DNA of 64,000 nucleotides, taken from an uncultured Armatimonadota bacterium (GTDB lineage Bacteria > Armatimonadota > Fimbriimonadia > Fimbriimonadales > Fimbriimonadaceae). How positions within the stretch are numbered: the first letter of the stretch is position 1; each line of letters opens with the position of its first letter. Below, in pieces: positions 18,526-45,643 of the stretch. A model generated the notes under the pieces. It did not search any database, had not been told where the DNA came from, and saw only the letters and a list, made by a program, of their open reading frames with translations. The translations under genes were made by a program, and so were the position numbers. The DNA lies in contig CAILEM010000099.1 of the NCBI GenBank assembly GCA_903833215.1, forward strand, positions 1 to 64,000, in the 5' to 3' direction.

Positions 18526-18551
18526 CTTTGTTGTCCCCAAGGGCCGTTAAC

Positions 18552-19022
18552 CTACTCGGTGTAGATCCAGGGATCTGCGAGCTTGCCCTGAAGGTCTTCG
18601 ATGGCCTGCGATGCCTCTCGGAGCCTTACCGAAAGGACTCTCGACAGGTTGCTCAGCATGATAAAGCCAATATCCTTGTTCTGAACCATGAAGCGGCGAA
18701 GCGCCTTACCATCGATGACTGCATAGGTCAGGTAGTTGCGCGACACGACATAGGCTGACCGAGGAAGATTATCGAGCAATGCAATCTCTCCGATCACTGA
18801 ACCAGGTCCGCGCTCGCCGAGCAAAACGCCTCCCTGTTTGTAAACCATCGCGGTGCCATCCAAGATGATGTAAAGATCAGAATCGGTCTTGCCCAACTTG
18901 ACGATTTCCTGTCCGCCTTCGACTCCTTTAAGCTGTGCGAGTTCGGCCACTTTGGCGATATCTTCATCGCTAAGACCGGAGACCAAGTAGTTCTGCTTGA
19001 ATTGATTGAGATTGATTTCCAT
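18552..19022 (-). CDS. Cyclic nucleotide-binding domain protein
   Basis: A 156-residue protein that is almost entirely one cNMP-binding domain. The phosphate-binding cassette IGEIALLDNLPRSA keeps the Glu that contacts the ribose and the Arg that contacts the phosphate. A C-terminal helix follows, with no helix-turn-helix, so it is a sensor or partner rather than a CRP-type transcription factor. The ATG at 19022 is chosen over an upstream TTG. It ends 26 bases from the convergent cyclase-TIR-AAA gene, suggesting it reads the nucleotide made by that protein. Confidence 0.85.
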   Translation of the reverse strand: MEINLNQFKQNYLVSGLSDEDIAKVAELAQLKGVEGGQEIVKLGKTDSDLYIILDGTAMVYKQGGVLLGERGPGSVIGEIALLDNLPRSAYVVSRNYLTYAVIDGKALRRFMVQNKDIGFIMLSNLSRVLSVRLREASQAIEDLQGKLADPWIYTE

Positions 19023-19189
19023 GCGGGGCCATTGCTCCAAAAACGATGTTGATCGCTGGGTGCGTCGATTCTACCTACGGCCAGCGAGCGAGACAAACCA
19101 TTTTCGCTTCTTGTCTACAGACAGATTTTTTGAAGCGATGGTTCTCTGCACCGTGTGGTGCGTTGAATCGCCGATCAGAGTTCAGTAAG

Positions 19190-28121: not shown

Positions 28122-28838
28122 ATGGCACCACAAGCGACGCGTATAAGCATCGTGTTCGGCTGTTTGGTATTTGCATTTGCCGGCGTGAGAACCCTCATCG
28201 TTCCGGATTCCTTTGGTAAGACCGGACATTTTCGTCAGGCAGCCCTAGGCGCAATTGCCGCACACCCACCGAAATTCGAGGGCAAGCAGCCCTGTATCGA
28301 CTGTCACGCAAACAATACGCCTCACACTGACAAAGGTGTATCTTGCGAAACCTGCCATGGACCAGGAGCCGCTCACTCGAAAGATTTCGATAGCTCCAAG
28401 CTCGTTGTAGATAAAACTCGGAACGCTTGTGGCCGATGCCACGCGATGAATACGGCGCGAAGATCAACCTTCCCACAGGTTGACATGGCCGAGCATCATG
28501 GCAGCCAGCGTTGCGTTGAGTGTCACAACATTCATCCAGAAGTGCCAGGTAAGCCCATCGGCGATCTCAAACCTGCTGGTATTCCGAAGGATGAAGCTGA
28601 CGCCAAGCCAACTGCACCCGTCAAACCAGGTGCCCCTGCCGCCGCGACGCCGCCAGCCAAAGATGCGAAAGCTGCTGGTGATGTCAAGGCAGCACCAAGC
28701 AAAGTAGTGCCAACGGAGAAGCCCAAAGACGCTAAGCCAGCTGTAGAGGCACCAAAGCCAACGGCAACTGCACCAAAACCGACCGCTACAGCAGCAAAGC
28801 CTGATGCGACCCCCGCAAAGCAAGGGAGTAAGAAATGA
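28122..28838 (+). CDS. Tetraheme cytochrome c
   Basis: A 238-residue exported protein with an N-terminal membrane segment or signal (residues about 8-28). Four CxxCH haem sites are visible: CIDCH, CETCH, CGRCH and CVECH, between about residues 58 and 136, with extra His residues for bis-His ligation. The C-terminal 85 residues are rich in Pro, Ala and Lys, like a periplasmic tether. The stop overlaps the next start (ATGA). It is the first gene of an Fe-S / NrfD operon and probably takes electrons from that module. Confidence 0.88.
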   Translation: MAPQATRISIVFGCLVFAFAGVRTLIVPDSFGKTGHFRQAALGAIAAHPPKFEGKQPCIDCHANNTPHTDKGVSCETCHGPGAAHSKDFDSSKLVVDKTRNACGRCHAMNTARRSTFPQVDMAEHHGSQRCVECHNIHPEVPGKPIGDLKPAGIPKDEADAKPTAPVKPGAPAAATPPAKDAKAAGDVKAAPSKVVPTEKPKDAKPAVEAPKPTATAPKPTATAAKPDATPAKQGSKK

Positions 28839-29653
28839 ACCCTGAAGAGAACACACCCCTCACAGATTCAGGCGAAGATAACACGATGACCCGCAGCGAG
28901 TTTCTCGCTGCAACCGGCAAATCAGTTGCCCTCATCGGTATTGGAGCCGCTGGATACGCCTCGTGGAATAGCCTGACTTCGCGTCTCGCGAAGCGAGAGA
29001 TGACGCCCATCAAACAATATCCAAACACAACTTGGTATTCGATGGCGATCGATATTCAGGCATGTATCGGATGTGGCAAGTGCGTTGAAGCGTGCTGCGC
29101 TGAGAACGACGTTCCGCAAGACGACTTCCGAACATGGATCGAAAGGTATCGGATCAAGAAGGACGGTACGGTGCTTATCGATTCGCCGAATGGCGGCAAA
29201 GATGGTCCTGGACCAGACGACGTGCCGGAAGATCAGATTGAGAAATCATTCTTCATGCCGAAGCTATGCAACCAGTGCGACGACTCTCCTTGCACGAGAG
29301 CTTGCCCGGTCGGTGCCACGTTCCTTACTCCTGAAGGGGCAGTCATCGTGGACTACGACTACTGCATCGGCTGCGGTTACTGCATTCAAGCCTGCCCATA
29401 CGGTTCTCGATTCTGGAATGCCAAGAAGCAGACGGCAGACAAATGCACCCTTTGCTACCACCGCATCACCAAAGGCAAGTTGCCAGCTTGCGTTGAAGTT
29501 TGTCCCGTCAAAGCAAGAATCTTTGGAAACTTGGCAGACGAGAAGAGCGAGATTTCGAAGTTCTGTCGAGAGAATGCCGTCGTTACTCTCAGGCCGCACC
29601 TGAAGACAGGCGCGAAGGTCATGTACAAGGGCTTGACCAAGGATGTCGTGTAA
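28835..29653 (+). CDS. Four-cluster ferredoxin subunit (NrfC/PsrB/HybA-like)
   Basis: A 272-residue electron-transfer subunit. Cys clusters for four [4Fe-4S] centres: CIGCGKCVEAC, CNQCDDSPCTRAC, CIGCGYCIQAC and CTLCYHR...CVEVC. The N-terminus has TRSEFLAATGKSVALIGIGA, a hydrophobic export or anchor segment near residues 18-45; the twin arginines of Tat signals are not complete. In the family this subunit connects the quinone-reactive NrfD to a periplasmic acceptor or donor. The start overlaps the cytochrome stop by four bases. Confidence 0.93.
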   Translation: MNPEENTPLTDSGEDNTMTRSEFLAATGKSVALIGIGAAGYASWNSLTSRLAKREMTPIKQYPNTTWYSMAIDIQACIGCGKCVEACCAENDVPQDDFRTWIERYRIKKDGTVLIDSPNGGKDGPGPDDVPEDQIEKSFFMPKLCNQCDDSPCTRACPVGATFLTPEGAVIVDYDYCIGCGYCIQACPYGSRFWNAKKQTADKCTLCYHRITKGKLPACVEVCPVKARIFGNLADEKSEISKFCRENAVVTLRPHLKTGAKVMYKGLTKDVV

Positions 29654-29656
29654 GCC

Positions 29657-30877
29657 ATGAACCCCCTCTTAATGAATCCGATGAGCTTGCTAGCTCAAAG
29701 CAACCTGTATGCGCTACCGAATGAGCAGCATGGAATCACGTGGGGCATCCTCATCGTGCTTTATCCATATCTCACAGGTTTGGTCGCAGGAGCTTTCATC
29801 CTTGCATCACTTGTAAGAGTCTTCAACACCGAAGCTGTTCGCCCTGTTTATCGACTGGCACTGCTGACAGCGTTGGCCTTTCTGATCTGCGCGCCTATGC
29901 CACTTCTGTGCCACCTTGGCCACCCAGAGCGGGCACTGCAGATCATGATGACGCCGCACACCACGTCGGCTATGGCCATCTTCGGATTTGTGTATGCCTG
30001 GTATCTCATGGCCGTCCTCCTATTGGAGGTCTACTTTGACTTCCGTAAGGACATGGTCTTGGCTTGTGAGAAATCTGGGCCCATCATGAGACTCGTGTAC
30101 ACAGTCTTGACGCTTGGGGTCAAAGACATTTCACCCAAAGCACTGGCCTTCGACGATAAGGCGGAGCGCTTTCTCTCTGTCATCGGTATTCCATCCGCGG
30201 TCCTACTTCACGGGTACGTCGGCTTCATCTTCGGGTCGCTCGCGGGTAATCCTTGGTGGTCCAGCGTTTTGATGCCGGTCATCTTCCTTCTCTCCGCGAT
30301 TGTCTCTGGCATCGCGATGGTCTTTCTGCTTCACATGATCACTAGCTGGTTCAAGAAAATCCCGCTAGACATGATATGCATGAACGCGATCGGAAGGATT
30401 CTGATGTTTGCGCTGATCTTCGACCTTACGCTCGAGACGCTGGACATCGTTCACAGAATGTACGAAGCCGGTGAATGGGTTGATATCCTACGACTCTTGA
30501 GTTCGGGCTACTTGTACTACACCATCTTTGGAGTGCAGCTGTTCCTCGGTGGAATCGTCCCGGTCATCACCCTTGCAGTCATGCAGGCGGCAAAGATGAG
30601 CAACGTCGTGAAGATTCGCTACTACTTCGTGATGGCGATTCTGGTTCAAGTCGGTGTCTTCGCAATGCGCTGGAACGTCGTTATCGGCGGTCAGCTCTCG
30701 TCGAAGAGTTTCCGAGGCATGAATCACTTCAATCTAGAGTTGTTTGGACGCGAAGGATTCCTAATGTTCGCAACCATCCTCTCGCTACCCTTCATCATCC
30801 TCTTCGTTCTCACCAAGATGCTTCCACCCTGGAAGAGCGGTCATGGCCCCGAAGAGTTGCCAGCTACGGCAGCCTAG
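29657..30877 (+). CDS. nrfD: NrfD/PsrC family polytopic membrane subunit
   Basis: A 406-residue integral membrane protein with about eight to ten hydrophobic helices across its length. It is the quinol/quinone-binding subunit by family. Segments such as YLTGLVAGAFILASL and FGSLAGNPWW, ending in an amphipathic tail, are typical. It follows the Fe-S subunit by three bases, so the three genes form a cytochrome-Fe-S-NrfD module. In Act/Qrc complexes such modules exchange electrons between the quinone pool and cytochromes. Confidence 0.92.
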   Translation: MNPLLMNPMSLLAQSNLYALPNEQHGITWGILIVLYPYLTGLVAGAFILASLVRVFNTEAVRPVYRLALLTALAFLICAPMPLLCHLGHPERALQIMMTPHTTSAMAIFGFVYAWYLMAVLLLEVYFDFRKDMVLACEKSGPIMRLVYTVLTLGVKDISPKALAFDDKAERFLSVIGIPSAVLLHGYVGFIFGSLAGNPWWSSVLMPVIFLLSAIVSGIAMVFLLHMITSWFKKIPLDMICMNAIGRILMFALIFDLTLETLDIVHRMYEAGEWVDILRLLSSGYLYYTIFGVQLFLGGIVPVITLAVMQAAKMSNVVKIRYYFVMAILVQVGVFAMRWNVVIGGQLSSKSFRGMNHFNLELFGREGFLMFATILSLPFIILFVLTKMLPPWKSGHGPEELPATAA

Positions 30878-30898
30878 TCACACCAACATCAATCACAA

Positions 30899-30932
30899 CG
30901 GCTTCAACCTCACGATCTGAGGTTGAAGCCGT
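30899..30932. terminator. Hairpin after the NrfD operon
   Basis: CGGCTTCAACCTCA pairs perfectly with TGAGGTTGAAGCCG around a six-base loop, 21 bases after the NrfD stop. No T-run follows, so it is terminator-like by strength and place. Confidence 0.7.
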
Positions 30933-30944
30933 TAAGCATTGTCC

Positions 30945-31345
30945 AGCCCCGTCGGCGGCGATCCTACCGTCGCAGCAGCCGGTCGGATTTTTCAGGCAAA
31001 CGAGAGTCGCCCAAAGCCCCCGTAGTCGGCGGTGATCGTACCGCCGCAGCAGCCGCAGGCATTCATGAGCCAAACGACAGTCGCCCACAGCCCCTGTAGT
31101 CGGCGGTGATCGTACCGACGCAACAGACGCAGGCATTCAAGAGACGAACGACAGTCGCCCACAGCCCCCCCGTAGACGGCGGTGATCGTACCGACGCAGC
31201 AGCCGGTGGCATTCATGAGCCGACTAGGCGTCACCCGAAGCCCCCGTAGTCGGCGGTGATCGTACCGACGCAGCCTCCGCAGGCATTCGTGAGCCGAACG
31301 ATTGATAACCACAGCCCCCATAGTCGGCGGTGATCGTACCGACGT
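30945..31345 (+). repeat. Tandem REP array, about 75-base units
   Basis: Six copies of GTAG plus TCGGCGGTGATCGTACCGA, starting at 30951 (degenerate, GTAG partly lost), 31022, 31096, 31172, 31246 and 31320 (ATAG in place of GTAG). Spacing is 74-76 bases. The sequence between copies is also conserved (CGCAGGCATTCATGAGCC, ACAGTCGCCCACAGCCCC), so the whole unit is duplicated, not just the palindrome. All face the same way. It lies immediately beyond the 3' end of the RAYT gene. Confidence 0.92.
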
Positions 31346-31422
31346 CCGGAAGGGCAGGGGGAAATCCAGTGACTGTGCGTGCGCGTCAGGCCCGATAGTT
31401 CAATGGATCCGTTGAACGACTG

Positions 31423-31447
31423 CATCGGTACGATCACCGCCGACTAC
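31423..31447 (-). repeat. Inverted REP copy, left of transposase
   Basis: Reverse-complement REP ending in CTAC (GTAG on the minus strand), with one substitution in the first arm (CATCGG for CGTCGG). Together with the plus-strand copy at 31320 it forms a head-to-head pair of 128 bases. Confidence 0.88.
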
Positions 31448-31482
31448 GAGGGCACGTGCACCTAAAATTGGGCGACACCCTT

Positions 31483-31974
31483 TCACCATGCGGCATCGTG
31501 AATTAATTCATTCAAGTTGTAGCCAATAGATCCTGTGAGTGGGTATGTCCAAGGATCTTGGACAATTCCCGCACGAACAGGATTCTGAAATACGTAGAAG
31601 ACCTTTTTTCGCCATTCCTCTGAACGCCGAATAATCCGATCGTGGTAACCAGTTTGCCATCGATAATCTGCATCCGAGGTCTTGAGATATCGACCGCTCT
31701 TGGTCTTGAACGCGTCCATCGCACGCCTACCGTCTGCATGGTCCGTCATCCCCATCGAGATGACGTGGAGGTGGTCCGGCATGAAGCAGTAGATGGGAAT
31801 ACCGCACCCGAATTTCTCAAACTGCTCCCCCATTATTGAAATGAGGGCTTCAACATCCGAGTGGCAAATGAACACCTGGCGACGTTCGTCTACACATGCG
31901 GTAAAGGAGATCGCAATCTGACCCACGTAAGATGTCGGTGGCAACCGATGCGGTCTTTGTCGCATTCCTGACAT
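31483..31974 (-). CDS. REP-associated tyrosine transposase (RAYT, Y1/IS200-like)
   Basis: A 163-residue single-strand DNA transposase of the TnpA-REP branch. MPDHLHVI (His68 and His70) is the HUH metal motif, and WQTGYHD (Tyr110) holds the catalytic tyrosine in the RAYT-specific context. RQRPHRLPP near the N-terminus and FQNPVRAGIV near the C-terminus are further family hallmarks. ATG 31974 is used rather than an in-frame TTG at 31992. It is flanked on both sides by REP copies with the GTAG tetranucleotide that such enzymes recognise. Appears intact. Confidence 0.93.
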   Translation of the reverse strand: MSGMRQRPHRLPPTSYVGQIAISFTACVDERRQVFICHSDVEALISIMGEQFEKFGCGIPIYCFMPDHLHVISMGMTDHADGRRAMDAFKTKSGRYLKTSDADYRWQTGYHDRIIRRSEEWRKKVFYVFQNPVRAGIVQDPWTYPLTGSIGYNLNELIHDAAW

Positions 31975-32035
31975 GGCATCGGATGATATCAAGGAACCAC
32001 GTTCGCACGGAAGCCCCCTGCCTACACCGCACTCC

Positions 32036-32060
32036 GTAGTCGGTGGTGATGGTACCGACG
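32036..32060 (+). repeat. REP copy, right of transposase, plus orientation
   Basis: GTAG then TCGGTGGTGATGGTACCGA, a variant with a longer outer stem (TCGGT/ACCGA). It pairs head to head with the inverted copy at 32114, giving a 103-base REPIN-like unit. Confidence 0.88.
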
Positions 32061-32113
32061 CTCTAGCCCGTTATCGCGTTCAAAGCACCAAATTCATCCC
32101 CGGCCGGTCCAGA

Positions 32114-32211
32114 CGTCGGTACGATCACCGCCGACTACGGAGGCTGCGAGTGATGCCTAGTCGGCTCATGAATGCCTGCGACGGCTGCGTCGGTACGATC
32201 ACCGCGTCTAC
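32114..32211 (-). repeat. Two inverted REP copies in tandem
   Basis: Minus-orientation copies at 32114-32138 (perfect) and 32188-32211 (four-base loss next to CTAC). They are 73 bases apart and the sequence between them (minus strand GCAGGCATTCATGAGCCGAC) matches the left array unit, so the same tandem unit flanks the transposase in opposite orientation. Confidence 0.88.
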
Positions 32212-32251
32212 GGGGGCTGCGGATGATTTTGGGTTGGGTGGACACTGCCGC

Positions 32252-32283
32252 AAAAAAACACAGGCCCCGGGTGGGGCCTGTGC
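32252..32283 (-). terminator. Rho-independent terminator of the radical SAM gene
   Basis: On the minus strand CACAGGCCCC and GGGGCCTGTG form a ten-base stem followed by seven T residues. It lies 26 bases past the radical SAM stop codon. Confidence 0.93.
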
Positions 32284-32308
32284 TGGAGAGAGGAACAGAA
32301 AGAAGCTG

Positions 32309-33394
32309 TTAGGCCATCGCGGGTTCGCGGATGGGTTCGTAGGAACAGATGGGGTCACTTCCGGCGGGATTGCCGGTGTGAGCGTAGGCTCGGGCTCTGG
32401 ACCCACCGCAGATTCGACGGAATTCGCAGTAGCCGCATTTGCCTTCGAAGTTATCCACGTCTCGCACGCGCTTGAAGACTTCCGAGTTCTGATAGATCTC
32501 CTTGAGTGACTTGTGGCGGACATTGCCCGCTTCAAGGGGTAGGAATCCGGAAGGATAGACTTGGCCGAGGTGGGATACGAATACGATGCCGTTTCCATCT
32601 CGGATACCGTAACCTGCATGGACGCTGCTCTTTCGAACTTCGTCGGCATGCATTCCGAGGGATTTCATCGTTTCGGACGCGACACGTCGGTAAGACGGTG
32701 CTTCGGTTGTCTTGATCTGGAACGGAGCGCGAGGTACGAGCTTCTGAATCCAGTGCATCAACTCTTCTGCGCGTTCGGGATCCAACTCGTTGAGTTGCTG
32801 TCCTCGGCCTACCGCGATAAGGAAGAACAAACTCCATCTCATCAGGGGGAAACTGTGAACCAACTCGAAAACGGCGGGAAGATCCGAAGCCGTCTCGTCG
32901 GTAACGAGCGTGTTGATCTGGAGGGGAAGTCCAACTTCACCAGCCCACTTCGCGGCTTGAAGGGTGATATCAAATGTGCCCGGCACCTGACGGATGTCAT
33001 CGTGCAACGCAGCAGTGGATCCATCCAAGCTTAACGCGATGCTGTCGACGCCAGCAGCTTTGAGTTGCTCGAACGTTTCCTTTGTAAGAGATGGTGATGC
33101 TGCAGGAGTGACAGAGACTTTGATCCCTTTATCCCGTGCGCTCGCGATGAGGTCAAACAAACGATCTCGCTTGAGTGGATCGCCGCCCGTGAGAACCAGA
33201 TGGGGAAGGGGTGCTCCGAACGAGGCGATGTCAGATAGGAGTCGCTCTCCGGCCGCATAGCTAAGTTGGAGAGGGTGCGGCATGGGCATCGCTGAAGCTC
33301 GGCAATGTCGGCATGCCAAGGGACAGGCCTGGGTTGTCTCCCAGTAGACGAGCATGGGTCGCTCGGCAAAATCTATGTGGTCGGGGCGTACCAT
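32309..33394 (-). CDS. Radical SAM / SPASM protein (TIGR04053-like, heme-linked type)
   Basis: A 361-residue radical SAM enzyme. CPLACRHC at residues 24-31 is the CxxxCxxC cluster site. LVLTGGDPL matches the SAM-binding GGxP region, and the C-terminal SPASM-like region has CGYCEFRRICGG with another Cys close by for auxiliary Fe-S clusters. The closest families I recall are the AhbD/TIGR04053 group, linked to alternative heme synthesis. It is divergent from protoporphyrinogen oxidase (145 bases), in a cytochrome-rich island. ATG 33394 fits the domain start; a longer reading frame upstream is overlap. Confidence 0.85.
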   Translation of the reverse strand: MVRPDHIDFAERPMLVYWETTQACPLACRHCRASAMPMPHPLQLSYAAGERLLSDIASFGAPLPHLVLTGGDPLKRDRLFDLIASARDKGIKVSVTPAASPSLTKETFEQLKAAGVDSIALSLDGSTAALHDDIRQVPGTFDITLQAAKWAGEVGLPLQINTLVTDETASDLPAVFELVHSFPLMRWSLFFLIAVGRGQQLNELDPERAEELMHWIQKLVPRAPFQIKTTEAPSYRRVASETMKSLGMHADEVRKSSVHAGYGIRDGNGIVFVSHLGQVYPSGFLPLEAGNVRHKSLKEIYQNSEVFKRVRDVDNFEGKCGYCEFRRICGGSRARAYAHTGNPAGSDPICSYEPIREPAMA

Positions 33395-33539
33395 CAATGA
33401 GGATGTTATTTCCAGATGGAGTCCGCCACAAGTCGTGGGTTTTACGGACAATGATTCTTGGCGCTTGAACCGACGACTTTTGCTCCGAGGGTGCCAGGGG
33501 TACCATCCGGAGCGTAGACACGCCTTTATAAACATCGAA

Positions 33540-34910
33540 ATGGCACGAATCATTATTATCGGAGGGGGAATCGCGGGCCTCAGCGCAGCGTACGACGCAT
33601 GCCAAGATGGCAAACACCAGGTAACCCTGATCGAGAGTTCGGATCGGCTTGGTGGAAAGATCATCACTCGATACGAGAATGATCTGGTGGTCGAAGGTGG
33701 GCCTGATTCTGTGTTCACCACCAAACCGTGGGCAGTCGACTTAATGGTGGAGCTCGGCTTGGAATCGGAACTCGAAGAGCCGATCGGTGCTGGATTCTCG
33801 GTGCTTGTCGGTGGGAAACTCCACGTCGTTCCTCGCGCACTTGCCAGCCTGATGCCATCCGCCTCGACAGCCCTTGAATCGATCGGCTTTCTCGGAGCAA
33901 CGGCCCGCAAACGTATCTTGTCCGAGAAAGCGGTTGAAAAGGGATCGGGAGAAGACGAAACGATCGCTTCGTTCTTTCGCCGACGGTTTGGCAATCGATT
34001 CTCAAAGACCCTAGCCGAACCGCTTCTTGCCGGTATCCACGCCGGAAGTGCGGACAAGTTAAGCATGAAGGCGCTCTATCCTTCTTATATAGGGCTCGAG
34101 CAAAAGCACGGAAGCCTAAGCGCCGTCAGTTCAGCAGCCCCAGCCATCGGTGCCCCCTCTACATCGCACCGAAAGCCAGGATTCATCACGCTGGACGGTG
34201 GTCTTCAACGACTCGTGGACGTCCTCGTTGAAAGGCTCAAGAGTGTCGACATCCGGCTCAACACACTGGTTGAGCAGATTGAGCGAAATGAGGATGGGTC
34301 GTTTCGTGTCCACGCGAATGAAGTCTTGGAATGTGATGCACTCATCTTCGCCATCCCAGGCTATGCCGCAGCACCCATTCTGAGTGGAATCGCTCCAGGT
34401 GCCTTTGAACCGCTTATGGGTATTCGGCACGGTTCGACCGCAGTAGCGTCATTTTGCTATGCGAGCAGTTCGTTCAAAAACGAGTTGCACGGTAATGGCT
34501 TCCTGGTGCCGGCGGATGAGCCTTCCAGTATTACGGGCTGCACATTCAGTTCGTTAAAGTGGAAACATCGTGCGCCCGATGGATCCGTCCTACTCAGGGC
34601 ATTCATGGGCCAGGACGGTGGACTTAATGTGGACGATTACTCCGATGACCAACTATTGAAAATGGCGGTGGCCGATTTTGGCAAACACCTCAAGGTCAAG
34701 GCGGAGCCCTATTACACCCGGGTGGATCGGTGGACAAAGGCAATGCCTCAGTACGAGGTCGGGCACACCGATAGAATGGACGTTATCGAAAACGCGGTCG
34801 GAGAAATGCCGATTCTGTTCGCCGGTTGTTCCTATCGTGGAACTGGCATTCCGGATTGCATTCGCCAGGGCAGAGAAGCGGCAAGATCTCTCAACAAGAG
34901 ATTTGCCTAG
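33540..34910 (+). CDS. hemY: Protoporphyrinogen/coproporphyrinogen oxidase
   Basis: A 456-residue FAD enzyme of heme biosynthesis. The dinucleotide motif GGGIAGLSAAY starts at residue 8, followed by ESSDRLGGK. GGPDSVFTTKPW and the C-terminal AGCSYRGTGIPDCIRQG are HemY/HemG-type FAD contacts. The enzyme oxidises protoporphyrinogen IX or coproporphyrinogen III; which one cannot be told from sequence. ATG 33540 starts exactly at the Rossmann fold. Heme made here probably feeds the many c-type cytochromes nearby. Confidence 0.9.
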   Translation: MARIIIIGGGIAGLSAAYDACQDGKHQVTLIESSDRLGGKIITRYENDLVVEGGPDSVFTTKPWAVDLMVELGLESELEEPIGAGFSVLVGGKLHVVPRALASLMPSASTALESIGFLGATARKRILSEKAVEKGSGEDETIASFFRRRFGNRFSKTLAEPLLAGIHAGSADKLSMKALYPSYIGLEQKHGSLSAVSSAAPAIGAPSTSHRKPGFITLDGGLQRLVDVLVERLKSVDIRLNTLVEQIERNEDGSFRVHANEVLECDALIFAIPGYAAAPILSGIAPGAFEPLMGIRHGSTAVASFCYASSSFKNELHGNGFLVPADEPSSITGCTFSSLKWKHRAPDGSVLLRAFMGQDGGLNVDDYSDDQLLKMAVADFGKHLKVKAEPYYTRVDRWTKAMPQYEVGHTDRMDVIENAVGEMPILFAGCSYRGTGIPDCIRQGREAARSLNKRFA

Positions 34911-34971
34911 TCAGAGGGGTGGGGACCAAACTCCACGCTTTAAACCCCTTTATACGTCACCTTGTACAAAG

Positions 34972-35029
34972 AAATCACCACAGACCTGACCTGTTTGTGG
35001 TTTCTAACCTTCGTTTTTTGTGGTGATTT
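34972..35029. promoter_or_regulatory. Long-range inverted repeat before decaheme gene
   Basis: AAATCACCACA (34972-34982) is complementary to TGTGGTGATTT (35019-35029) with 36 bases between; a partial third copy TTTGTGGTTTC lies at 34994-35004. The T-run at 35014-35019 follows no tight stem. This could be a terminator for hemY or a set of operator half-sites for the decaheme operon. Confidence 0.35.
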
Positions 35030-35170
35030 CCACTGACATCATAACCCTTGACGGATTTGATGATTACATGACAATCCTGATGCGCTATTCTCAATTTGCT
35101 GGTAAAGCCAGCGAGGAAACGACCGATTCCCTGGCAACGGAAGGCGAACGGTTCGAATGGAGACGGGGAA

Positions 35171-36184
35171 GTGAAAATACAAGCGTTAGTGCTCAGTATA
35201 GGAATCGCAAGCCTCGTTTTTGGGGCAATGCAGTCTGGCAAGAAGCCTGCCGCAAAAACAGCGCCCGATAAACCCGATCAAGCGGTTACAAATATCAACC
35301 TACGATTCGCTCAGGCCAAACCAGAGGACTACATTGGGGATCAGGCTTGTGTCGAATGTCACTCTACTAAATCACACAGGTTCGATGAATCGGCTCATTT
35401 CGCGCCGATGTCGAACCCGAAGCTTCCTCTTGCTCAAAGAGGGTGTGAAGGATGTCACGGCCCAGGAAAGGCTCACCAAGAGAACCCCGAAGTCGAAGTC
35501 ATCTCGTTCACTAAGTTAAGTCCCAAAGACTCGGCTGCGGCTTGCTTACGCTGTCACGGCCAGACGATGGACAAATCGCATTGGGCGCATACCGACCATG
35601 CGAAAGCAAAGCTCTCCTGCACCACTTGTCACCAACTGCACCCGGATACGGAGTTGGACCTGCAAGGTAACGGTTTGAAGCGTGGAAAGACTGAAGATCC
35701 GCGCAGTTTGGTTCGAATGGCAAAGCAGCCTGCGAAACAGTTATTGCTTAAAGCCGACGAAGTCACGCTGTGTGGTCAATGTCACCCGTCCCAGATTGCT
35801 GACTTTAGACAGGCGTATCACCATCCAGTGCCAGAGGGTCAATTGACATGCAGTGATTGCCATGCCCTTCATCCGACGAAATCATCGCAGGTACGCCAAG
35901 CCTCCTTCAAGAGCAAGTGCGTTACATGCCATGCGGATAAGGCTGGACCCTTTGTATACGAACACGATCCCGTAGCAGGATTCGGTGGAAGCGGCTGTGA
36001 CGAGTGCCATAAGGCACACGGATCTCAGAACCCGTCGATGCTGACCTCTCGGACTCGCGGCTTGTGTGCACAGTGCCACTCCGACAAACTCGCCACTCAC
36101 CATCCTGGCCAGACTTGCTGGTCTGCTGGATGTCACGTCGCACCGCACGGAAGCAATACCCATAAAGCTTTCCTGCGTCCCTAG
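35171..36184 (+). CDS. Decaheme c-type cytochrome (MtrA/DmsE-like)
   Basis: A 337-residue exported cytochrome starting at GTG, with GGGG upstream and a signal peptide (IQALVLSIGIASLVFG). Nine CxxCH sites are seen: CVECH, CEGCH, CLRCH, CTTCH, CGQCH, CSDCH, CVTCH, CDECH and CAQCH. A tenth site is CWSAGCH, a CX4CH variant. Length and ten haems match the MtrA/DmsE/PioA family, which fills an outer-membrane porin to move electrons across it. The next gene (six bases on) encodes a beta-barrel, matching the usual porin-cytochrome pair. Confidence 0.9.
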   Translation: MKIQALVLSIGIASLVFGAMQSGKKPAAKTAPDKPDQAVTNINLRFAQAKPEDYIGDQACVECHSTKSHRFDESAHFAPMSNPKLPLAQRGCEGCHGPGKAHQENPEVEVISFTKLSPKDSAAACLRCHGQTMDKSHWAHTDHAKAKLSCTTCHQLHPDTELDLQGNGLKRGKTEDPRSLVRMAKQPAKQLLLKADEVTLCGQCHPSQIADFRQAYHHPVPEGQLTCSDCHALHPTKSSQVRQASFKSKCVTCHADKAGPFVYEHDPVAGFGGSGCDECHKAHGSQNPSMLTSRTRGLCAQCHSDKLATHHPGQTCWSAGCHVAPHGSNTHKAFLRP

Positions 36185-36190
36185 GAGGAA

Positions 36191-37969
36191 ATGAAGATGA
36201 AGCGATGGATCACACCACTTGCGACACTGGCCGGAACGGCAGTGATGATCGCCTGTGCTAGTGCTCAACAGGCGCCCATCCCCTCCCAAGGGGACGACAA
36301 ACCACAGAGTGACAAGCAAGCTCAAAAGCAGTCAGCTGTTAAGAAGAAACCCGCAGCCGATCAGTCCAAAAAGGCAGATGCCAAAAAAGCAGATGCTAAA
36401 AAGACTGATGAGGCCAAGGGTGATGCGGCTCCCGCCGAAGCTGGCAAGGCAGATGCCCCTTACGAGGCCGAAGCCAAACCACTCTATAACTCTCTGACTG
36501 TCGGCTACAGCACTTGGAACTCGTCGGGCAACAATAGCGCGATGAACCAGCACGGGCTTGTTCAAGGCGGATTCGGCCTGGCCGATCTGTCGATCCTTAC
36601 GCCGTTCGATAAAGGAACCTATACAGCATTCGATTGGAAAGGCAATATAGGCGGCGATTTCGGTACGAGCTTGACCACAAAGTGGGGCGGAGACACCTCA
36701 CTCGTTGTCAATGCTCATCAATTCACTTCTTTTGACCCAAGTTTCGGTGTAACCGATCCAAGTCGACGGAAGGGAGTGGATGCAACGCTAGAACAGACTC
36801 TTGGTACGAATTTTGGCGCTTTCGTTTCGATGAAACTCGACCAGAATGAGCATCAATTCTCAGCTCCTATCGATCCTACCGACTATGTAACTCGAACGGT
36901 AACTCTCGGTGCTCAGAAGCAAGTAGGCGAACACACGTTTGGTGCGCTCTACTCCGAATCGAGCTTTAGCGATGTCACAGCGATCCAACCAGGAACCTTG
37001 ACGGATCGAGGGCAACTTCGATACGCCGGAAACTGGGGAAGTCGTCTATCCACAATGGGAACAATCGGACTTACTCGAATCGAGCAAGCCGGATTACCCA
37101 GCAACTGGATTCGTGACTATGCGGTCAGCGGTGTTTACGATGTCAGCGAGGATTCATCCCTCGGTGCTCACTTCGGTGAGCAAGACCTCGATCTGAACGC
37201 CGTGCAGACTGCCTACGTTCGGAAGAAGCTCGACTCAGGTCTGAACTTCAATGCCCGACTCGGAGAGTGGGGACTTGGGTTTGGATTTGCCCACCGCGAA
37301 GAAGAAAGAGTGCGAGCTGACCACAGCTTCGTAGACGTTCCTGCATGGAATACCTACGATGTAAAACTGAACGGAAAGCTGACACACACCTACCGACTCG
37401 GCGTGAAAGGCACCCTTGAGGACCTATCAAGTGCTCCGAATTTCCTAACTACCGACCCGAGGCTTTTGTATTGGAGCCGAAAGGCGAAGGTGCAGGGCAA
37501 GGTAAGTGGTGGAGGGGAAAAGAGTTCGGAGTATCTCAGCTATACATTCCAGTATCGAGAAAACTCTATGCGAGAGTTCTCGATCACGACATATGACGTC
37601 GCCATAGGTGGCAGCAGGGTCTTTACTCCGAAACTTCTCGGTTATGCCGAGTTTGCTTCTGAGCAATATACGACCGGCGGACCTAACCCGATAGCTCCTC
37701 AATTGGGAAGCTACTTGGCACCTTCCGAGACGTTCATGCTTGGATTGGACTACACGCGTAATTCGCGCGAAGACCTTTCCCTCGTCTTAACTAGCTTCTA
37801 TACCCAGGATCAGTGGGGACAACAGGTTGCCCTGACGTACCGACTGGACTTAGGCAAAGAACGCAACTTCCTGATCACCTACTCCCCTTGGCTCCAGCGT
37901 GATCGACTGTACGACGTGGATACCTTCACCGCTCCTGTTTGGACGATGAAACTAGGATTCCGCTTCTAA
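36191..37969 (+). CDS. MtrB/PioB-like outer-membrane beta-barrel
   Basis: A 592-residue outer-membrane protein. A signal peptide (ending about residue 26) precedes a Lys/Ala-rich linker up to residue 90. The rest shows alternating polar and hydrophobic residues with many aromatic ends, as in a large barrel, and ends MKLGFRF, the expected C-terminal aromatic. The call rests on its position six bases after a decaheme cytochrome and on size; the CXXC of Shewanella MtrB was not seen. AGGAGG precedes the ATG. Confidence 0.75.
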   Translation: MKMKRWITPLATLAGTAVMIACASAQQAPIPSQGDDKPQSDKQAQKQSAVKKKPAADQSKKADAKKADAKKTDEAKGDAAPAEAGKADAPYEAEAKPLYNSLTVGYSTWNSSGNNSAMNQHGLVQGGFGLADLSILTPFDKGTYTAFDWKGNIGGDFGTSLTTKWGGDTSLVVNAHQFTSFDPSFGVTDPSRRKGVDATLEQTLGTNFGAFVSMKLDQNEHQFSAPIDPTDYVTRTVTLGAQKQVGEHTFGALYSESSFSDVTAIQPGTLTDRGQLRYAGNWGSRLSTMGTIGLTRIEQAGLPSNWIRDYAVSGVYDVSEDSSLGAHFGEQDLDLNAVQTAYVRKKLDSGLNFNARLGEWGLGFGFAHREEERVRADHSFVDVPAWNTYDVKLNGKLTHTYRLGVKGTLEDLSSAPNFLTTDPRLLYWSRKAKVQGKVSGGGEKSSEYLSYTFQYRENSMREFSITTYDVAIGGSRVFTPKLLGYAEFASEQYTTGGPNPIAPQLGSYLAPSETFMLGLDYTRNSREDLSLVLTSFYTQDQWGQQVALTYRLDLGKERNFLITYSPWLQRDRLYDVDTFTAPVWTMKLGFRF

Positions 37970-38021
37970 GCAACGACAAGGAAATGAAACTGAATTCTAA
38001 GGGACAAAGAACGGAGGACTT

Positions 38022-39530
38022 ATGAAAGCGCGATGGCTCACATTGTTTGCATGTGTCCCGCTGATAGTCGGAACCATGCTGTTGCAGAGTTGCGGAGGCG
38101 TAGGCGGACCTGCTAAGGGTTCAACCTCACCTGGCTCAAATCAACCTACACAGGCGTTTCTGGCGCTCTTAACACCGGAGCAGAAAGGGGCGAAGAACAT
38201 CGGCCCAGAAGCATGTGGCACAGCCACTTGTCACGGTGGAGCGGCTGCAAAGGCTCATATAGCAATGAAGACGGCTTCCCTCAAAAAGATGGGAAGCGGT
38301 GACAACCAGTACACGACATGGAAAGATACTGCTCATGCCCAAAAAGGCGTGACATGCGAAAAGTGCCACGGACCTGGTAGTGCGCACGCCGCCATGCCAC
38401 AAAAGGCTGACGGAACTGCAAATGCAATTCTGACTTTCCCGAATATCGCTTCACCGACCGTATGCGGTCAGTGCCACGGACCAACTCACGATGAGTTCAT
38501 GGCATCCAAGCATGCAGAGTTGATTGCGAGCCCGATCTCATCGACGGTAACCGGTCCAACCACAAGTGGACAGGCAAGCCAATGCTTCGAGTGCCACGGC
38601 GGTTTGACGAGAGCGCAGTATCTCAACAACGGCATCACACCCGAGCAGATGACATCGGCTCAGATCGTTCAGGTTGCGAACGACACTCTCAACTCACTTC
38701 CTCACGTCGCTCTCTGCGCAACATGCCATAATCCGCATGCGAAGACGGGCAACCTCACAGGAAATGGAAAAGAGGTTCAACTCTATAATTCCGAAGTCCT
38801 TACAGATAGCTCTGGAATCGGCCCAGGAACGACACCTCCACAGTACACGCGCGTCAATCAAGTATGCGGCCAATGCCATAACGGTAGAGGCACCACAGCC
38901 ACTGATGCGTACCTGAACAGCAGCACTTCTCGGCCGTCCGCACACCACAGCAATCAGTTCAACTCCTTGCTAGGCGTCGGTGGTGCAGAGAACTGGAACA
39001 GCCCACCATCGAAGCGATCTGGTACTCACGCCCTTGCTCCTGGACAGTGCGCCACATGCCACATGCCAAATGCGCGACACACCTTCACGGTGAGTTACGA
39101 TGGCTGTGCACCATGCCACACAACTTCAGACGCAGCAGCGAGAGCATCGGCCCTCAAAGCAGAGGTTAGCAATGACCTCCTCGCTCTTGAGACTCGAATG
39201 TCAAGCTGGGCAGTTGCTCAGGGTTGGAACGCGGCATGTTGGGACTACACATCGAACATCCCCTCAGGCGTAACTGCTCCTAAGCAGACTTTGATTCCCA
39301 ACAGCGTCAAAGAAGCCCGCCACAACTACTACTACATCGTGATCTCGGGCGACCTCGGAATCCACAACCCTTCGTACACTCGGTACCTGTTGGACTGGTC
39401 CAACAACGCACTGACAAGCGCAGGTATTCCCAAGGTCAATATGAGCGAGATCACTAAGATCCCGACCGCTGCGAAGATCAAGCACTTCCAGCAGATCAAA
39501 GCGAAATCAGCCAACTCGTCTATGGACTGA
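38022..39530 (+). CDS. Octaheme cytochrome c lipoprotein
   Basis: A 502-residue protein with a lipobox (LLQSC, Cys near residue 24), so lipid-anchored, probably on the outer membrane. Seven CxxCH sites are visible (CEKCH, CGQCH, CFECH, CATCH, CGQCH, CATCH, CAPCH) plus one CX4CH, CGTATCH. The C-terminal part (HNYYYIVISGDLGIHNPSYT, split as HNYYYIVISGDL and GIHNPSYTR) resembles the helical tail of NrfA-type and other multihaem cytochromes. It may be the terminal or extracellular electron carrier of the porin-cytochrome set. Confidence 0.87.
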   Translation: MKARWLTLFACVPLIVGTMLLQSCGGVGGPAKGSTSPGSNQPTQAFLALLTPEQKGAKNIGPEACGTATCHGGAAAKAHIAMKTASLKKMGSGDNQYTTWKDTAHAQKGVTCEKCHGPGSAHAAMPQKADGTANAILTFPNIASPTVCGQCHGPTHDEFMASKHAELIASPISSTVTGPTTSGQASQCFECHGGLTRAQYLNNGITPEQMTSAQIVQVANDTLNSLPHVALCATCHNPHAKTGNLTGNGKEVQLYNSEVLTDSSGIGPGTTPPQYTRVNQVCGQCHNGRGTTATDAYLNSSTSRPSAHHSNQFNSLLGVGGAENWNSPPSKRSGTHALAPGQCATCHMPNARHTFTVSYDGCAPCHTTSDAAARASALKAEVSNDLLALETRMSSWAVAQGWNAACWDYTSNIPSGVTAPKQTLIPNSVKEARHNYYYIVISGDLGIHNPSYTRYLLDWSNNALTSAGIPKVNMSEITKIPTAAKIKHFQQIKAKSANSSMD

Positions 39531-39547
39531 TAACTCGTGACGTGAGA

Positions 39548-39579
39548 AATGAGGACTTGTCGAAGGACAGGTCCTCATT
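39548..39579 (+). terminator. Hairpin after octaheme cytochrome
   Basis: AATGAGGAC and GTCCTCATT form perfect nine-base arms, with further pairing inside (TGTC/GACA). No T-run. It may separate the cytochrome from the haem lyase gene. Confidence 0.55.
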
Positions 39580-39618
39580 CACACTTTAAGTGACTGAGAT
39601 CCGTCAACGGAGCAGACG

Positions 39619-42015
39619 ATGAACCTTCCTACCCCTCCAGATTGGTCACTTACGACCGGAGAATGCGGGCGCTTAGCCGTATATCTTTCCACCTTCCTGT
39701 TCACTCTAAGCGTAATCTGTTGGTTCCTTGTGCCAAAGGCGCCTCAATTAAAGAGCTTTGCTCGCAATTCCCTAAACATAGGCGTCTTTAGCCTTTTCGG
39801 AGCGTTTGTTGCCTTGGGCGCGCTCTTTGTCGCGAGTCGATTCGAATACTCCTATGTCTATGAACACGGAGACCGAGCCAATGCAATTCAATACCGCGTT
39901 GCTGGTATCTGGTCGGGGCAGCAAGGAAGTTTTCTTCTCTGGGCTGTCTGCGCTGGCATCTTTGCCCTCTTAACGGTTAAGGGGACGGGGAATCTACGCC
40001 GCTGGTATTCCATCGTGTACGGCCTGTTTCTGGCCTCCCTTTCAGGAATTCTCGCTTTTGAATCACCGTTCAACCTGAACATGGTCGATGGCAAACCCGT
40101 CGTCCCACCAGATGGAGCAGGGCTTGCACCCTCTCTTCAGAATTACTGGGTAACCATCCATCCGCCGACGATCTTCCTTGGCTTTGGTGCCCTAACCGTT
40201 CTTTTTGCCTACGCATTCGCGGCGATGGTTGAGAAAGACTACACTGGCTGGCTCCCTAAAGTTCGACCTTGGGCGCTAGTCTCCTTAGCTGTGCTGGGGC
40301 TTGGGCTCTGTATGGGCGGCTTCTGGGCCTATGAAACCCTTGGTTGGGGTGGGTTCTGGATGTGGGATCCAGTTGAGAACGTCAGCTTTGTTCCCTGGTG
40401 CCTAACCGCAGCTTTTGTCCACGGAGTGATCGTTCAAACGGCTCGTGGGACAAAAAAGGCAGGAAACCTTATTCTAGGGGGACTTCCTTTCCTGTGCTTT
40501 ATCTACGGAACGTTCCTTACTCGATCCGGATTTCTTTCGGATGCAAGTGTTCACAGCTTCGCCGAAATGGATCGATCTGCTCTTCGACTCCTTATGGGAG
40601 TGATGGGTGCATCTTTCATAGCCTTTCTTGGCCTTTTCGCCTATCGAAGTTTCCAAATGAAAAAGGAAGCTCCTGTCGAGAAGAAAGAAGAGGTTAAGCA
40701 GCCAAGCCCCTATGGCCGAGAGGCACTCATCAATATTGGCATTGCCACCGTAACTTCCATCGGTGTCGCCACGCTCATAGGCATGAGCATTCCGTTTGTC
40801 CAAGCTTTGAAGCATCAGCCTTCGAAAGTCGTCGAGGAAGGACTGTACCACCAGGTGCTGACTTGGTTCTTTATCCCAACGATTCTGCTGATGGCGGTTG
40901 CACCCTTCGCTCCTTGGAAGAACGCAACCGGCAAGAATCTCCTGAGTCGCTTCTACTCTGTACTTTGCTTGGCCGTCGGTTTTACTGGACTGTTCCTGAT
41001 CGCCCTCGTCTTCACGCCGTTTGGGCAAATCATCGACAAGGCCCCGGTCGTAACGCTGGTAGGCAAGCATGACCTTCCAGGAATGGCTTGGATTCTCTTC
41101 CTCATCGGTGCCTGCAGCTTCTGCATCATCGGAAACGTTTGGCGGATTTGGGAACTACGCAAGGCAAGCCGGCTCGGCTGGTCTCCATTCCTTGCTCATA
41201 TCGGCGTCGCCATTCTTATGTTCGGCTTGATCGTTTCTCGAGGGTTCGAGCAGAAAGCACAGCTCACCGTCATGAAGGATCATCCTGACAAAGCACTCGG
41301 TTACGAGTTTCGCTATCGAAGCATGACATCGACCGAATCGGATAAGCACAACAAGGTCTTGTTCGACGTATATAGTGCTGAAGACCCCAAGAAGTTACTC
41401 TTCACGGCAGATCCTGGAATGTACAAAGTTCCCGCCGAAGACGGTAACGAGAACACAATGGTTTGGCCAGCGATTGTCCACAAGCCTCTCTACGACATTT
41501 ATGTATCACTTCGCCCACCTCAGAATGAGCAAAGCGATCCGATGTCACTAAAAGAGGGAGAGACCAAGGTCTTCGGCGGACTCGTCATCAAGTACGACAA
41601 GATGACGATGAACGGTCAGCCTGGTCAAGCGGGAACTCAGTTCCAAGCAAACCTGTCTATCGACAACGACGGTAAGAAAACGGCGGTTCAACCGTCGATT
41701 GAACTTGGGGGAGAAGGGAAGCCAGTCCATCACAAGATCGCCGTCGATAAAAACTTAAACGTGGAGGTCGCCTCGTTTAACGCAGCCGATCGATCTGTGA
41801 CCCTCCAGTTTGAACTCTCTAGTCCGATGTATCCAATTGATGTCTACCATAAGCCGATGACGTCCATGGTGTGGTTGGGTACCGGACTCATGACTGTAGC
41901 TGGCCTCTTTGCTGCATTTTATCGGAGGGTTCCTTCAACGTCGAAGGCCGCCGAGAAGGCACCTGTTGCAACAGGCAAGGAAAGAAGCGGGCGACTCGCA
42001 AAGCAATCCTCATAG
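39619..42015 (+). CDS. ccmF: CcmF/NrfE-type cytochrome c haem lyase
   Basis: A 798-residue polytopic membrane protein that attaches haem to apocytochrome c in System I. The WWD haem-handling motif is present as WGGFWMWDPVENVSFVPW near residue 240. There are some 13-15 hydrophobic helices. A large soluble region near residues 530-760 matches the periplasmic domain of CcmF. The total is longer than E. coli CcmF (647). No CcmA-E or CcmH genes accompany it here, so the set is either elsewhere or specialised for the neighbouring cytochromes. Confidence 0.92.
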   Translation: MNLPTPPDWSLTTGECGRLAVYLSTFLFTLSVICWFLVPKAPQLKSFARNSLNIGVFSLFGAFVALGALFVASRFEYSYVYEHGDRANAIQYRVAGIWSGQQGSFLLWAVCAGIFALLTVKGTGNLRRWYSIVYGLFLASLSGILAFESPFNLNMVDGKPVVPPDGAGLAPSLQNYWVTIHPPTIFLGFGALTVLFAYAFAAMVEKDYTGWLPKVRPWALVSLAVLGLGLCMGGFWAYETLGWGGFWMWDPVENVSFVPWCLTAAFVHGVIVQTARGTKKAGNLILGGLPFLCFIYGTFLTRSGFLSDASVHSFAEMDRSALRLLMGVMGASFIAFLGLFAYRSFQMKKEAPVEKKEEVKQPSPYGREALINIGIATVTSIGVATLIGMSIPFVQALKHQPSKVVEEGLYHQVLTWFFIPTILLMAVAPFAPWKNATGKNLLSRFYSVLCLAVGFTGLFLIALVFTPFGQIIDKAPVVTLVGKHDLPGMAWILFLIGACSFCIIGNVWRIWELRKASRLGWSPFLAHIGVAILMFGLIVSRGFEQKAQLTVMKDHPDKALGYEFRYRSMTSTESDKHNKVLFDVYSAEDPKKLLFTADPGMYKVPAEDGNENTMVWPAIVHKPLYDIYVSLRPPQNEQSDPMSLKEGETKVFGGLVIKYDKMTMNGQPGQAGTQFQANLSIDNDGKKTAVQPSIELGGEGKPVHHKIAVDKNLNVEVASFNAADRSVTLQFELSSPMYPIDVYHKPMTSMVWLGTGLMTVAGLFAAFYRRVPSTSKAAEKAPVATGKERSGRLAKQSS

Positions 42016-42024
42016 GAGATGAAC

Positions 42025-42351
42025 ATGAAACGAACACTATTGATTACAGCACTCATCGGCATCGGCGCAGCAGCCATGTCGACAACCGCAAACTGGAAGG
42101 TCTTCCAGGCCAAGTACAGCATTTCGAAGGAATCCAAGATTGGAACCGCCGGATGCGTTAACTGCCACGTCGGTAAGAAAGGCGGCAAGCTCAACGCATA
42201 CGGTAAGGACCTTCAGGTTGTGATGAAGGCTGCCAGCACCAAGAAACTCACCAACGAGCTTCTTGCTAAGGTCGAAGGACTCGACTCCCTGAAAGATGGC
42301 AAGACAAATATTGCCAAGATCAAGGCCGACGTCAATCCTGGCCAACCTTAA
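42025..42351 (+). CDS. Small monohaem cytochrome c
   Basis: A 108-residue exported protein with a signal peptide (LLITALIGIGAAAMS) and one CxxCH site, CVNCH, near residue 36. The remainder is Lys/Gly-rich and small, lacking an obvious distal Met motif. ATG 42025 is chosen because AGGAG (42014-42018) is six bases away; the upstream ATG at 42019 touches the ribosome binding site. Probably a periplasmic shuttle for the cytochromes of this island. The strong terminator at 42373 ends the unit. Confidence 0.82.
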   Translation: MKRTLLITALIGIGAAAMSTTANWKVFQAKYSISKESKIGTAGCVNCHVGKKGGKLNAYGKDLQVVMKAASTKKLTNELLAKVEGLDSLKDGKTNIAKIKADVNPGQP

Positions 42352-42372: not shown

Positions 42373-42407
42373 AAGGCGGGGTGACTCTTTTGGAGTCACC
42401 CCGCCTT
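42373..42407. terminator. Bidirectional terminator
   Basis: AAGGCGGGGTGACTC and GAGTCACCCCGCCTT form perfect 15-base arms around TTTTG. It lies between the cytochrome gene and the convergent lipoprotein gene. Confidence 0.85.
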
Positions 42408-43644: not shown

Positions 43645-43893
43645 AAGGATTACTCCGGAATCAAAAAAAACAAACAGTGACGGTCAGCACCGTTGCTGTG
43701 GGCTCTATTCTAAGACAGAAATCGCGGATTTGATTAAGGAAATTGAGAATTTTCGCAATTAGTGGTAATGCAGATCTCAACTTCACTGAGCAGAATTGGC
43801 GAAGTGCAGTGCTTCTATGCTGCTAGAATCAGACGACTCTATTGAATTTCGGGCACCTTTTTGCAGGGAAATGTCCCTTTGTTTGAACCTAAA

Positions 43894-45621: not shown

Positions 45622-45643
45622 TCTTTCTGAGTTTAGGCGAAGA

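Follow-up and report, generated by a model that had tools for sequence, protein, structure and literature searches.

The window, a 64,000-nucleotide stretch of DNA from an uncultured bacterium of the Fimbriimonadaceae (Armatimonadota), lay on contig 99 of a 6.2-Mb genome that was 99.97% complete. As shown in Table 1, genes for a tetrahaem cytochrome, an NrfC-type iron-sulfur protein and an NrfD-type membrane protein formed one operon-like unit (28122–30877, intergenic gaps of -4 and 3 nt), and genes for a decahaem cytochrome, an outer-membrane barrel, an octahaem lipoprotein, a CcmF-type haem lyase and a monohaem cytochrome formed a second (35171–42351, gaps of 6, 52, 88 and 3 nt), which was closed by a terminator-like stem. 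CxxCH motifs numbered 4, 9 and 7 in the tetrahaem, decahaem and octahaem proteins, as against at most 1–2 in 2000 sequence shuffles. The two transcription units were 4.3 kb apart, and a REP/RAYT element and a divergent pair of haem-synthesis genes (TIGR04053 radical SAM protein and protoporphyrinogen oxidase) lay between them. The REP/RAYT element separates the units and is no part of the conduit. The word “island”, used for this region in an earlier note on the same DNA, was dropped: a genomic island by composition was rejected, as GC was uniform (0.51–0.56 throughout), and the genes fell into two units. ORF 31973–32509 and other overlapping ORFs were judged to be spurious.

Table 1. Genes and other features of the cassette region, with positions in the window
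Feature	Position	Strand	Evidence
Tetrahaem c-type cytochrome	28122..28838	+	4 CxxCH; Cytochrom_c3_2 and Cytochrome_C7 over cut-off
NrfC-type iron-sulfur protein (4Fe-4S clusters)	28835..29653	+	Fer4_11 E 4e-24; NrfC/PsrB-type 2vpw_B E 1e-38
NrfD-type membrane quinol dehydrogenase subunit	29657..30877	+	PF03916 136.7 bits
REP repeats and REP-associated tyrosine transposase	30946..32205 (transposase 31483-31992, -)		PF01797; NF047646 78.5 bits, cut-off 80
Radical SAM/SPASM protein TIGR04053 (relative of haem b synthase AhbD)	32309..33394	-	TIGR04053 467 bits; AhbD model 289 bits
Protoporphyrinogen oxidase	33540..34910	+	TIGR00562 254 bits, cut-off 98
Periplasmic decahaem cytochrome, MtrA/DmsE-like	35171..36184	+	MtrA 6r2q_A E 2.1e-32; TIGR03508 187 bits; NF041028 180 bits
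26-stranded outer-membrane barrel, MtrB-like	36191..37969	+	AF2 model; MtrB 6r2q_B top fold match
Octahaem lipoprotein	38022..39530	+	Lipobox LQSC, 8 haem motifs; PF22113 39.9 bits; profile matches to OcwA 6qvm and 6i5b
CcmF/NrfE-type haem lyase, second in the genome	39619..42015	+	PF01578 and PF16327
Monohaem cytochrome	42019..42351	+	1 CxxCH; position conserved in loci of the window's family
Intrinsic terminator-like stem	42373..42407	+	16 pairs, 10 of them GC; closes the decahaem-to-monohaem unit

The REP-type array comprised six copies with a period of 74–76 nt, plus inverted copies, around the transposase gene. Its 22-mer GTAGTCGGCGGTGATCGTACCG occurred 167 times in the genome (up to 2 mismatches; reversed control, 0), and several of these copies were near contig ends. 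Elsewhere in the window, a flavin-dependent halogenase-like protein was encoded beside TPR-sulfotransferase proteins (43861–47500 and 47903–49771), and similar FAD proteins recurred further along the contig (L147); a TIR and AAA_35 protein with a weak nucleotide-cyclase match was followed by a second AAA_35 protein (16450–21253).

The NrfD/Fe-S quinone module with a tetrahaem cytochrome, as described in the earlier note, was found in the upstream unit. The tetrahaem protein had a membrane anchor or signal at its N terminus and a tail rich in Pro, Ala and Lys, and is presumed to be the electron exit of the module.

The decahaem gene began with a GTG codon inside ORF 35096. Its product contained nine CxxCH motifs and one CX4CH motif (CWSAGCH), with 33.7 residues per haem. 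Besides MtrA of the Mtr complex, it matched the DmsE model TIGR03508 with E 3.9e-55, its score being just below the cut-off of 192 bits, and the GSU2203 model NF041028, for which the curated cut-off of 325 bits was not reached. Judged by this match and by the ten haem motifs, the protein is a predicted member of the MtrA/DmsE decahaem family, and the earlier note had rightly placed such a protein beside a large barrel, the gene of which started 6 nt downstream. In an alignment of 30 rows the ten haem-motif His and 11 other His, as candidate haem ligands, were invariant. The tenth haem motif was CX4CH, nearly always CW-x-x-G-CH, in 32/32 Armatimonadota and in three Verrucomicrobia decahaem-type homologues, and CxxCH in Shewanella MtrA and two Acidobacteria homologues; the CX4CH form is possibly a clade marker or a sign of altered haem-site geometry.

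Sequence comparison of the barrel with Pfam and NCBIfam, and a profile search of the PDB, revealed no more than generic porin similarity. The window barrel did not match TIGR03509 (MtrB/PioB) or reach its cut-off, nor did it match any Pfam MtrB/PioB family or the GSU2204 model; among 26 barrel homologues TIGR03509 matched one weakly (E 0.003), and the GSU2204 model matched four (best E 1.8e-6). Since sequence models did not recognise the barrel, its assignment needed a structure, and comparison with the MtrB fold had been set beforehand as a test of the conduit interpretation. An AlphaFold2 model built from five sequences (pLDDT 73.5, residues 1–97 of low confidence) had 26 strands, which is the strand number of MtrB (6r2q) as well. 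Shewanella MtrB (6r2q_B) came first in a Foldseek search of the PDB (E 1e-13; next barrel, 9e-9) and in VIA-align (Z 24.4, rmsd 3.8, 486 residues aligned; next, Z 16.9), so that in the predicted model MtrB is by far the best solved fold match of the barrel. A C-terminal Phe, the usual signature of outer-membrane barrels, was present in 27/32 homologues. The first ~97 residues of the barrel (36191–36480) and the last ~100 of the tetrahaem cytochrome (28540–28838) were of Lys/Ala/Pro-rich low complexity; these stretches perhaps span the periplasm or the peptidoglycan.

The octahaem protein had seven CxxCH motifs and one CX4CH motif (CGTATCH), and its relatives were lipoproteins in nearly all cases. 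It carried the MtrC/MtrF domain PF22113 (cut-off 30 bits) and was not among the matches of TIGR03507, the OmcA/MtrC decahaem family, having eight haems, not ten. In a profile search of solved structures the best matches were 6i5b and OcwA (6qvm), followed by c554, octahaem nitrite reductase, MccA and NrfA. With 6i5b and OcwA as its best solved relatives despite PF22113, the protein was not an MtrC by the tests made, and it appears to resemble OcwA and the NrfA superfamily. It is presumed to be an outer-surface cytochrome. An AF2 model from 11 sequences was poor (pLDDT 49) except for a block of C-terminal helices (pLDDT about 57–88). In one congener two octahaem genes were in tandem (L042, 21–3182); mtrC duplications are known in proteobacteria.

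Its matches to OcwA, octahaem nitrite reductase, MccA and NrfA raise an alternative in which the octahaem protein would be an enzyme of the NrfA/OcwA/MccA superfamily that reduces some soluble nitrogen or sulfur compound on or close to the outer membrane, the barrel and decahaem protein merely supplying electrons. We regard this as improbable. No CxxCK motif was found in the protein, all eight haem motifs ending in His, and identity with NrfA nitrite reductase was rejected, because the CxxCK catalytic haem was absent and there were eight motifs as against a pentahaem core. Eight motif His and eight other His were invariant in 32/32 aligned sequences and were kept in distant Verrucomicrobia and Planctomycetes homologues, so that the extra His equalled the haems in number. 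This count would suffice for bis-His ligation of every haem but does not prove six-coordination, since OcwA, which reduces soluble oxyanions besides solid acceptors, has two five-coordinate haems although its histidines suffice (PMC6703420).

The octahaem lipoprotein, the monohaem cytochrome and CcmF named in the earlier note were thus all present. The monohaem cytochrome is presumed to be a periplasmic shuttle. Another CcmF was encoded at C50:35012. The idea that the CcmF of the cassette is a lyase specific for CX4CH received no support from co-distribution, because this motif was kept in families without a CcmF neighbour. The TIGR04053 protein and protoporphyrinogen oxidase are candidates for accessory haem supply; the pair adjoined the cassette also in two congeners (L033 and L034). 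Other multihaem proteins of the genome were encoded on contigs C116, C50, C97 and C154, and none of these was recognised as an NrfA-type reductase by the models applied. A 7-haem lipoprotein-like cytochrome was encoded away from the conduit (L182, 6982–8274), and a ~1050-residue fusion of a multihaem part with several class I cytochrome c/FixO-like domains was found in this genome (L183, 6052–9210) and in a congener (L032, 12491–15613).

A soluble reductase elsewhere that might explain the cytochromes had also been looked for in the genome, and none was found. NuoG was the only molybdopterin-family protein found, so that a molybdopterin terminal reductase, noted earlier as lacking in the region, did not turn up elsewhere in the genome either. 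The second NrfD of the genome belonged to an alternative complex III, which was followed by a caa3-type oxidase, and was rejected as a mark of another conduit. As neither the barrel fold nor a soluble reductase spoke against it, the conduit interpretation stands. The absence of a Mo-dependent terminal reductase among the genes found also argues against a DmsEFAB-like extracellular DMSO or iodate reductase. Such a system was rejected for want of a DmsA-type molybdoenzyme, and even with the decahaem score so near the DmsE cut-off its probability is negligible. Since an alternative complex III and a caa3-type oxidase are encoded, the host probably respires oxygen, and the conduit may play a subordinate part.

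The octahaem protein was present in 61/291 Armatimonadota genomes. At the 39 loci with more than 4.5 kb upstream of its gene, it was adjoined by the decahaem gene in all 39, by the barrel gene in 38 and by the CcmF gene in 20; CcmF and monohaem genes were found mainly in the window's family and its near kin. Of 101 genomes searched, 29 had a single member of the barrel family, and these included 6 of the 20 genomes of the window's own genus, indicating a patchy distribution. The decahaem-barrel-octahaem triad is thus conserved across Armatimonadota, over many families, and the conservation in relatives that the earlier note had proposed to look for was borne out. In three Verrucomicrobia loci (L066, L068 and L081), a nine-haem homologue of the octahaem family adjoined an eight-haem MtrA-like protein (CWTxGCH) and a 727–747-residue protein ending in YRF, which matched no family and is presumed to be a barrel. 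If the parts were unconnected, an ordinary nutrient porin would stand beside cytochromes of periplasmic respiration. The failure of MtrB family sequence models on the barrel would fit this, but its clear best fold match to MtrB, the presence of the whole triad at 38 of 39 loci from many families and the recurrence beside the Verrucomicrobia genes of an MtrA-like cytochrome and a Phe-ending protein of ~730 residues make it very improbable. The MtrB fold, the MtrA homology and the conserved triad together support the earlier reading of the gene order as the layout of trans-outer-membrane electron systems.

In many relatives a CbcL-like protein (seven haem motifs and a C-terminal cytochrome b561, PF01292) or an ImcH-like protein (NapC, PF03264, and seven haem motifs) was encoded beside the cassette, both being named by domain make-up as a likeness to the Geobacter proteins and not as established orthologues. 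Cytochromes of the CbcL and ImcH kinds sit in the inner membrane and act on quinones in extracellular electron transfer (PMC6295460). CbcL-like proteins were found in 16/29 cassette carriers and 7/72 other genomes, ImcH-like proteins in 9/29 and 2/72, NrfD in 9/29 and 3/72, and any of the three in 21/29 and 10/72; the Fisher tests of this co-occurrence treat genomes as independent and ignore shared ancestry. The tetrahaem-NrfC-NrfD module lay near the conduit in the window and at L033, partly at L045, and adjoined an ImcH-like gene in G060, which belongs to the window's family, and in G028. The window's genome had a CbcL-like gene on another contig, and no match to ImcH was found in it. We read the CbcL-like, ImcH-like and tetrahaem-NrfC-NrfD modules as alternative, interchangeable feeders of one conduit.

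We therefore propose, with good confidence, that the cassette is a porin-cytochrome electron conduit passing quinol electrons to an extracellular acceptor. NrfD would oxidise quinol at the inner membrane, and the NrfC clusters would relay the electrons to the tetrahaem cytochrome, from which they would reach the decahaem protein directly or via the monohaem shuttle. The decahaem protein, seated in the 26-stranded barrel, would form the path through the outer membrane to the octahaem lipoprotein, and the latter would discharge the electrons to an acceptor, for instance ferric oxide, humics or another cell. The high haem demand would be served by CcmF together with the haem-synthesis pair. Extracellular reduction is the likeliest function, its direction and substrate being inferred.

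The opposite direction, in which electrons taken from extracellular Fe(II) or some other solid donor would enter through the conduit and feed the quinone pool or the aerobic chain, much as in MtoAB- and PioAB-like systems, seems somewhat unlikely. NrfCD and ImcH-type modules normally stand on the quinol-oxidising side, which argues against it. Outward flow is favoured also because the conserved triad includes a surface-type multihaem cytochrome, unlike MtoAB and PioAB (PMC6344600), and because no fitting internal terminal reductase was found. Inward flow would suit a host with a caa3-type oxidase and an alternative complex III; CbcL/MtoC and Mtr homologues work in both directions (PMC6295460), and an MtoA-like gene of another Armatimonadota class was interpreted in terms of Fe(II) oxidation (PMC9671151). 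With outward flow preferred, the window's bacterium very probably passes respiratory electrons outside the cell via a haem-protein wire through an outer-membrane barrel.

The earlier note knew of no such system in this phylum. That stood for the present cassette: no description of it, or of “porin-cytochrome” paired with Armatimonadota, was found in a search that most subscription papers and preprints lay outside. It did not stand more broadly, since one c__UBA5829 Armatimonadota genome was reported to carry MtoAB-like genes (PMC9671151) and a Fimbriimonadales genome to have automatic (FeGenie) iron-reduction matches (PMC13055281). Cytochromes with at least six haems were found only in c__HRBIN16 and c__UBA5829 genomes and not in the Fimbriimonadia of that study (PMC9671151), and multihaem cytochromes of unknown function were reported in a hot-spring Armatimonadota population (PMC11788075). 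A broad survey found strict MtrCAB clusters in only three phyla, Armatimonadota being unmentioned (PMC8805035). In the present analysis an MtrAB-homologous core with a different terminal cytochrome was found in about a fifth of the Armatimonadota genomes sampled, some of them closely related to ordinary aerobic heterotrophs, and the cassette provides the phylum with a concrete set of candidate genes for electron transfer to minerals, to humics or between species.

Because its outer cytochrome appears OcwA/NrfA-like and not MtrC, the conduit is of MtrAB type with another cytochrome at the surface and an inner-membrane module that can be swapped. This suggests a conserved MtrAB core to which outer cytochromes and quinone modules are attached as replaceable parts. 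We lean, with some reserve, towards a separate conduit lineage across Armatimonadota that recurs in its broad form in Verrucomicrobia and perhaps in Planctomycetes. Its MtrAB-type core, marked by an almost invariant CX4CH motif at the tenth haem site, would be joined to an OcwA-type octahaem surface lipoprotein in place of MtrC and to an inner donor swapped among the CbcL-like, ImcH-like and NrfCD-tetrahaem kinds.

Among known systems, Geobacter Pcc (OmbB-OmaB-OmcB) and PCC3 and PCC4 of iron oxidisers likewise combine a porin with a periplasmic multihaem cytochrome, and Pcc and PCC3 have an outer multihaem cytochrome as well; they were not recognised as homologous to the present cassette, and PCC3 cytochromes carry far more haems (PMC5566968). 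MtoAB and PioAB share with it the MtrA-like cytochrome and barrel, and DmsEFAB the DmsE-like decahaem protein and barrel. The cassette resembled Geobacter GSU2203 (OmcK)/GSU2204 in the match of its decahaem protein to the GSU2203 model and of 4/26 barrels to GSU2204, and differed from it in that the decahaem score was under the cut-off (180 vs 325 bits) and the window barrel had no match. We know of no octahaem protein of the present family beside GSU2203/GSU2204. OcwA of Thermincola, which together with 6i5b gave the best profile matches to the octahaem protein, is a terminal reductase at the cell surface; unlike the octahaem protein, it has nine haems and a Gram-positive host without a porin conduit. 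The Verrucomicrobia triads, in which a cytochrome of the octahaem family likewise stands beside an MtrA-like cytochrome and a protein of ~730 residues, differ from the window in their haem numbers (eight and nine in place of ten and eight). MtrCAB of Shewanella (6r2q) has in common with the cassette an MtrA-like decahaem protein beside a 26-stranded MtrB-like barrel and a gene for a multihaem lipoprotein. Unlike MtrCAB, with its decahaem MtrC/OmcA, the cassette has an octahaem outer cytochrome, a barrel below the MtrB family cut-offs and a CX4CH tenth haem motif in its MtrA-type protein, and its inner-membrane donor is NrfCD with a tetrahaem cytochrome where Shewanella uses CymA.
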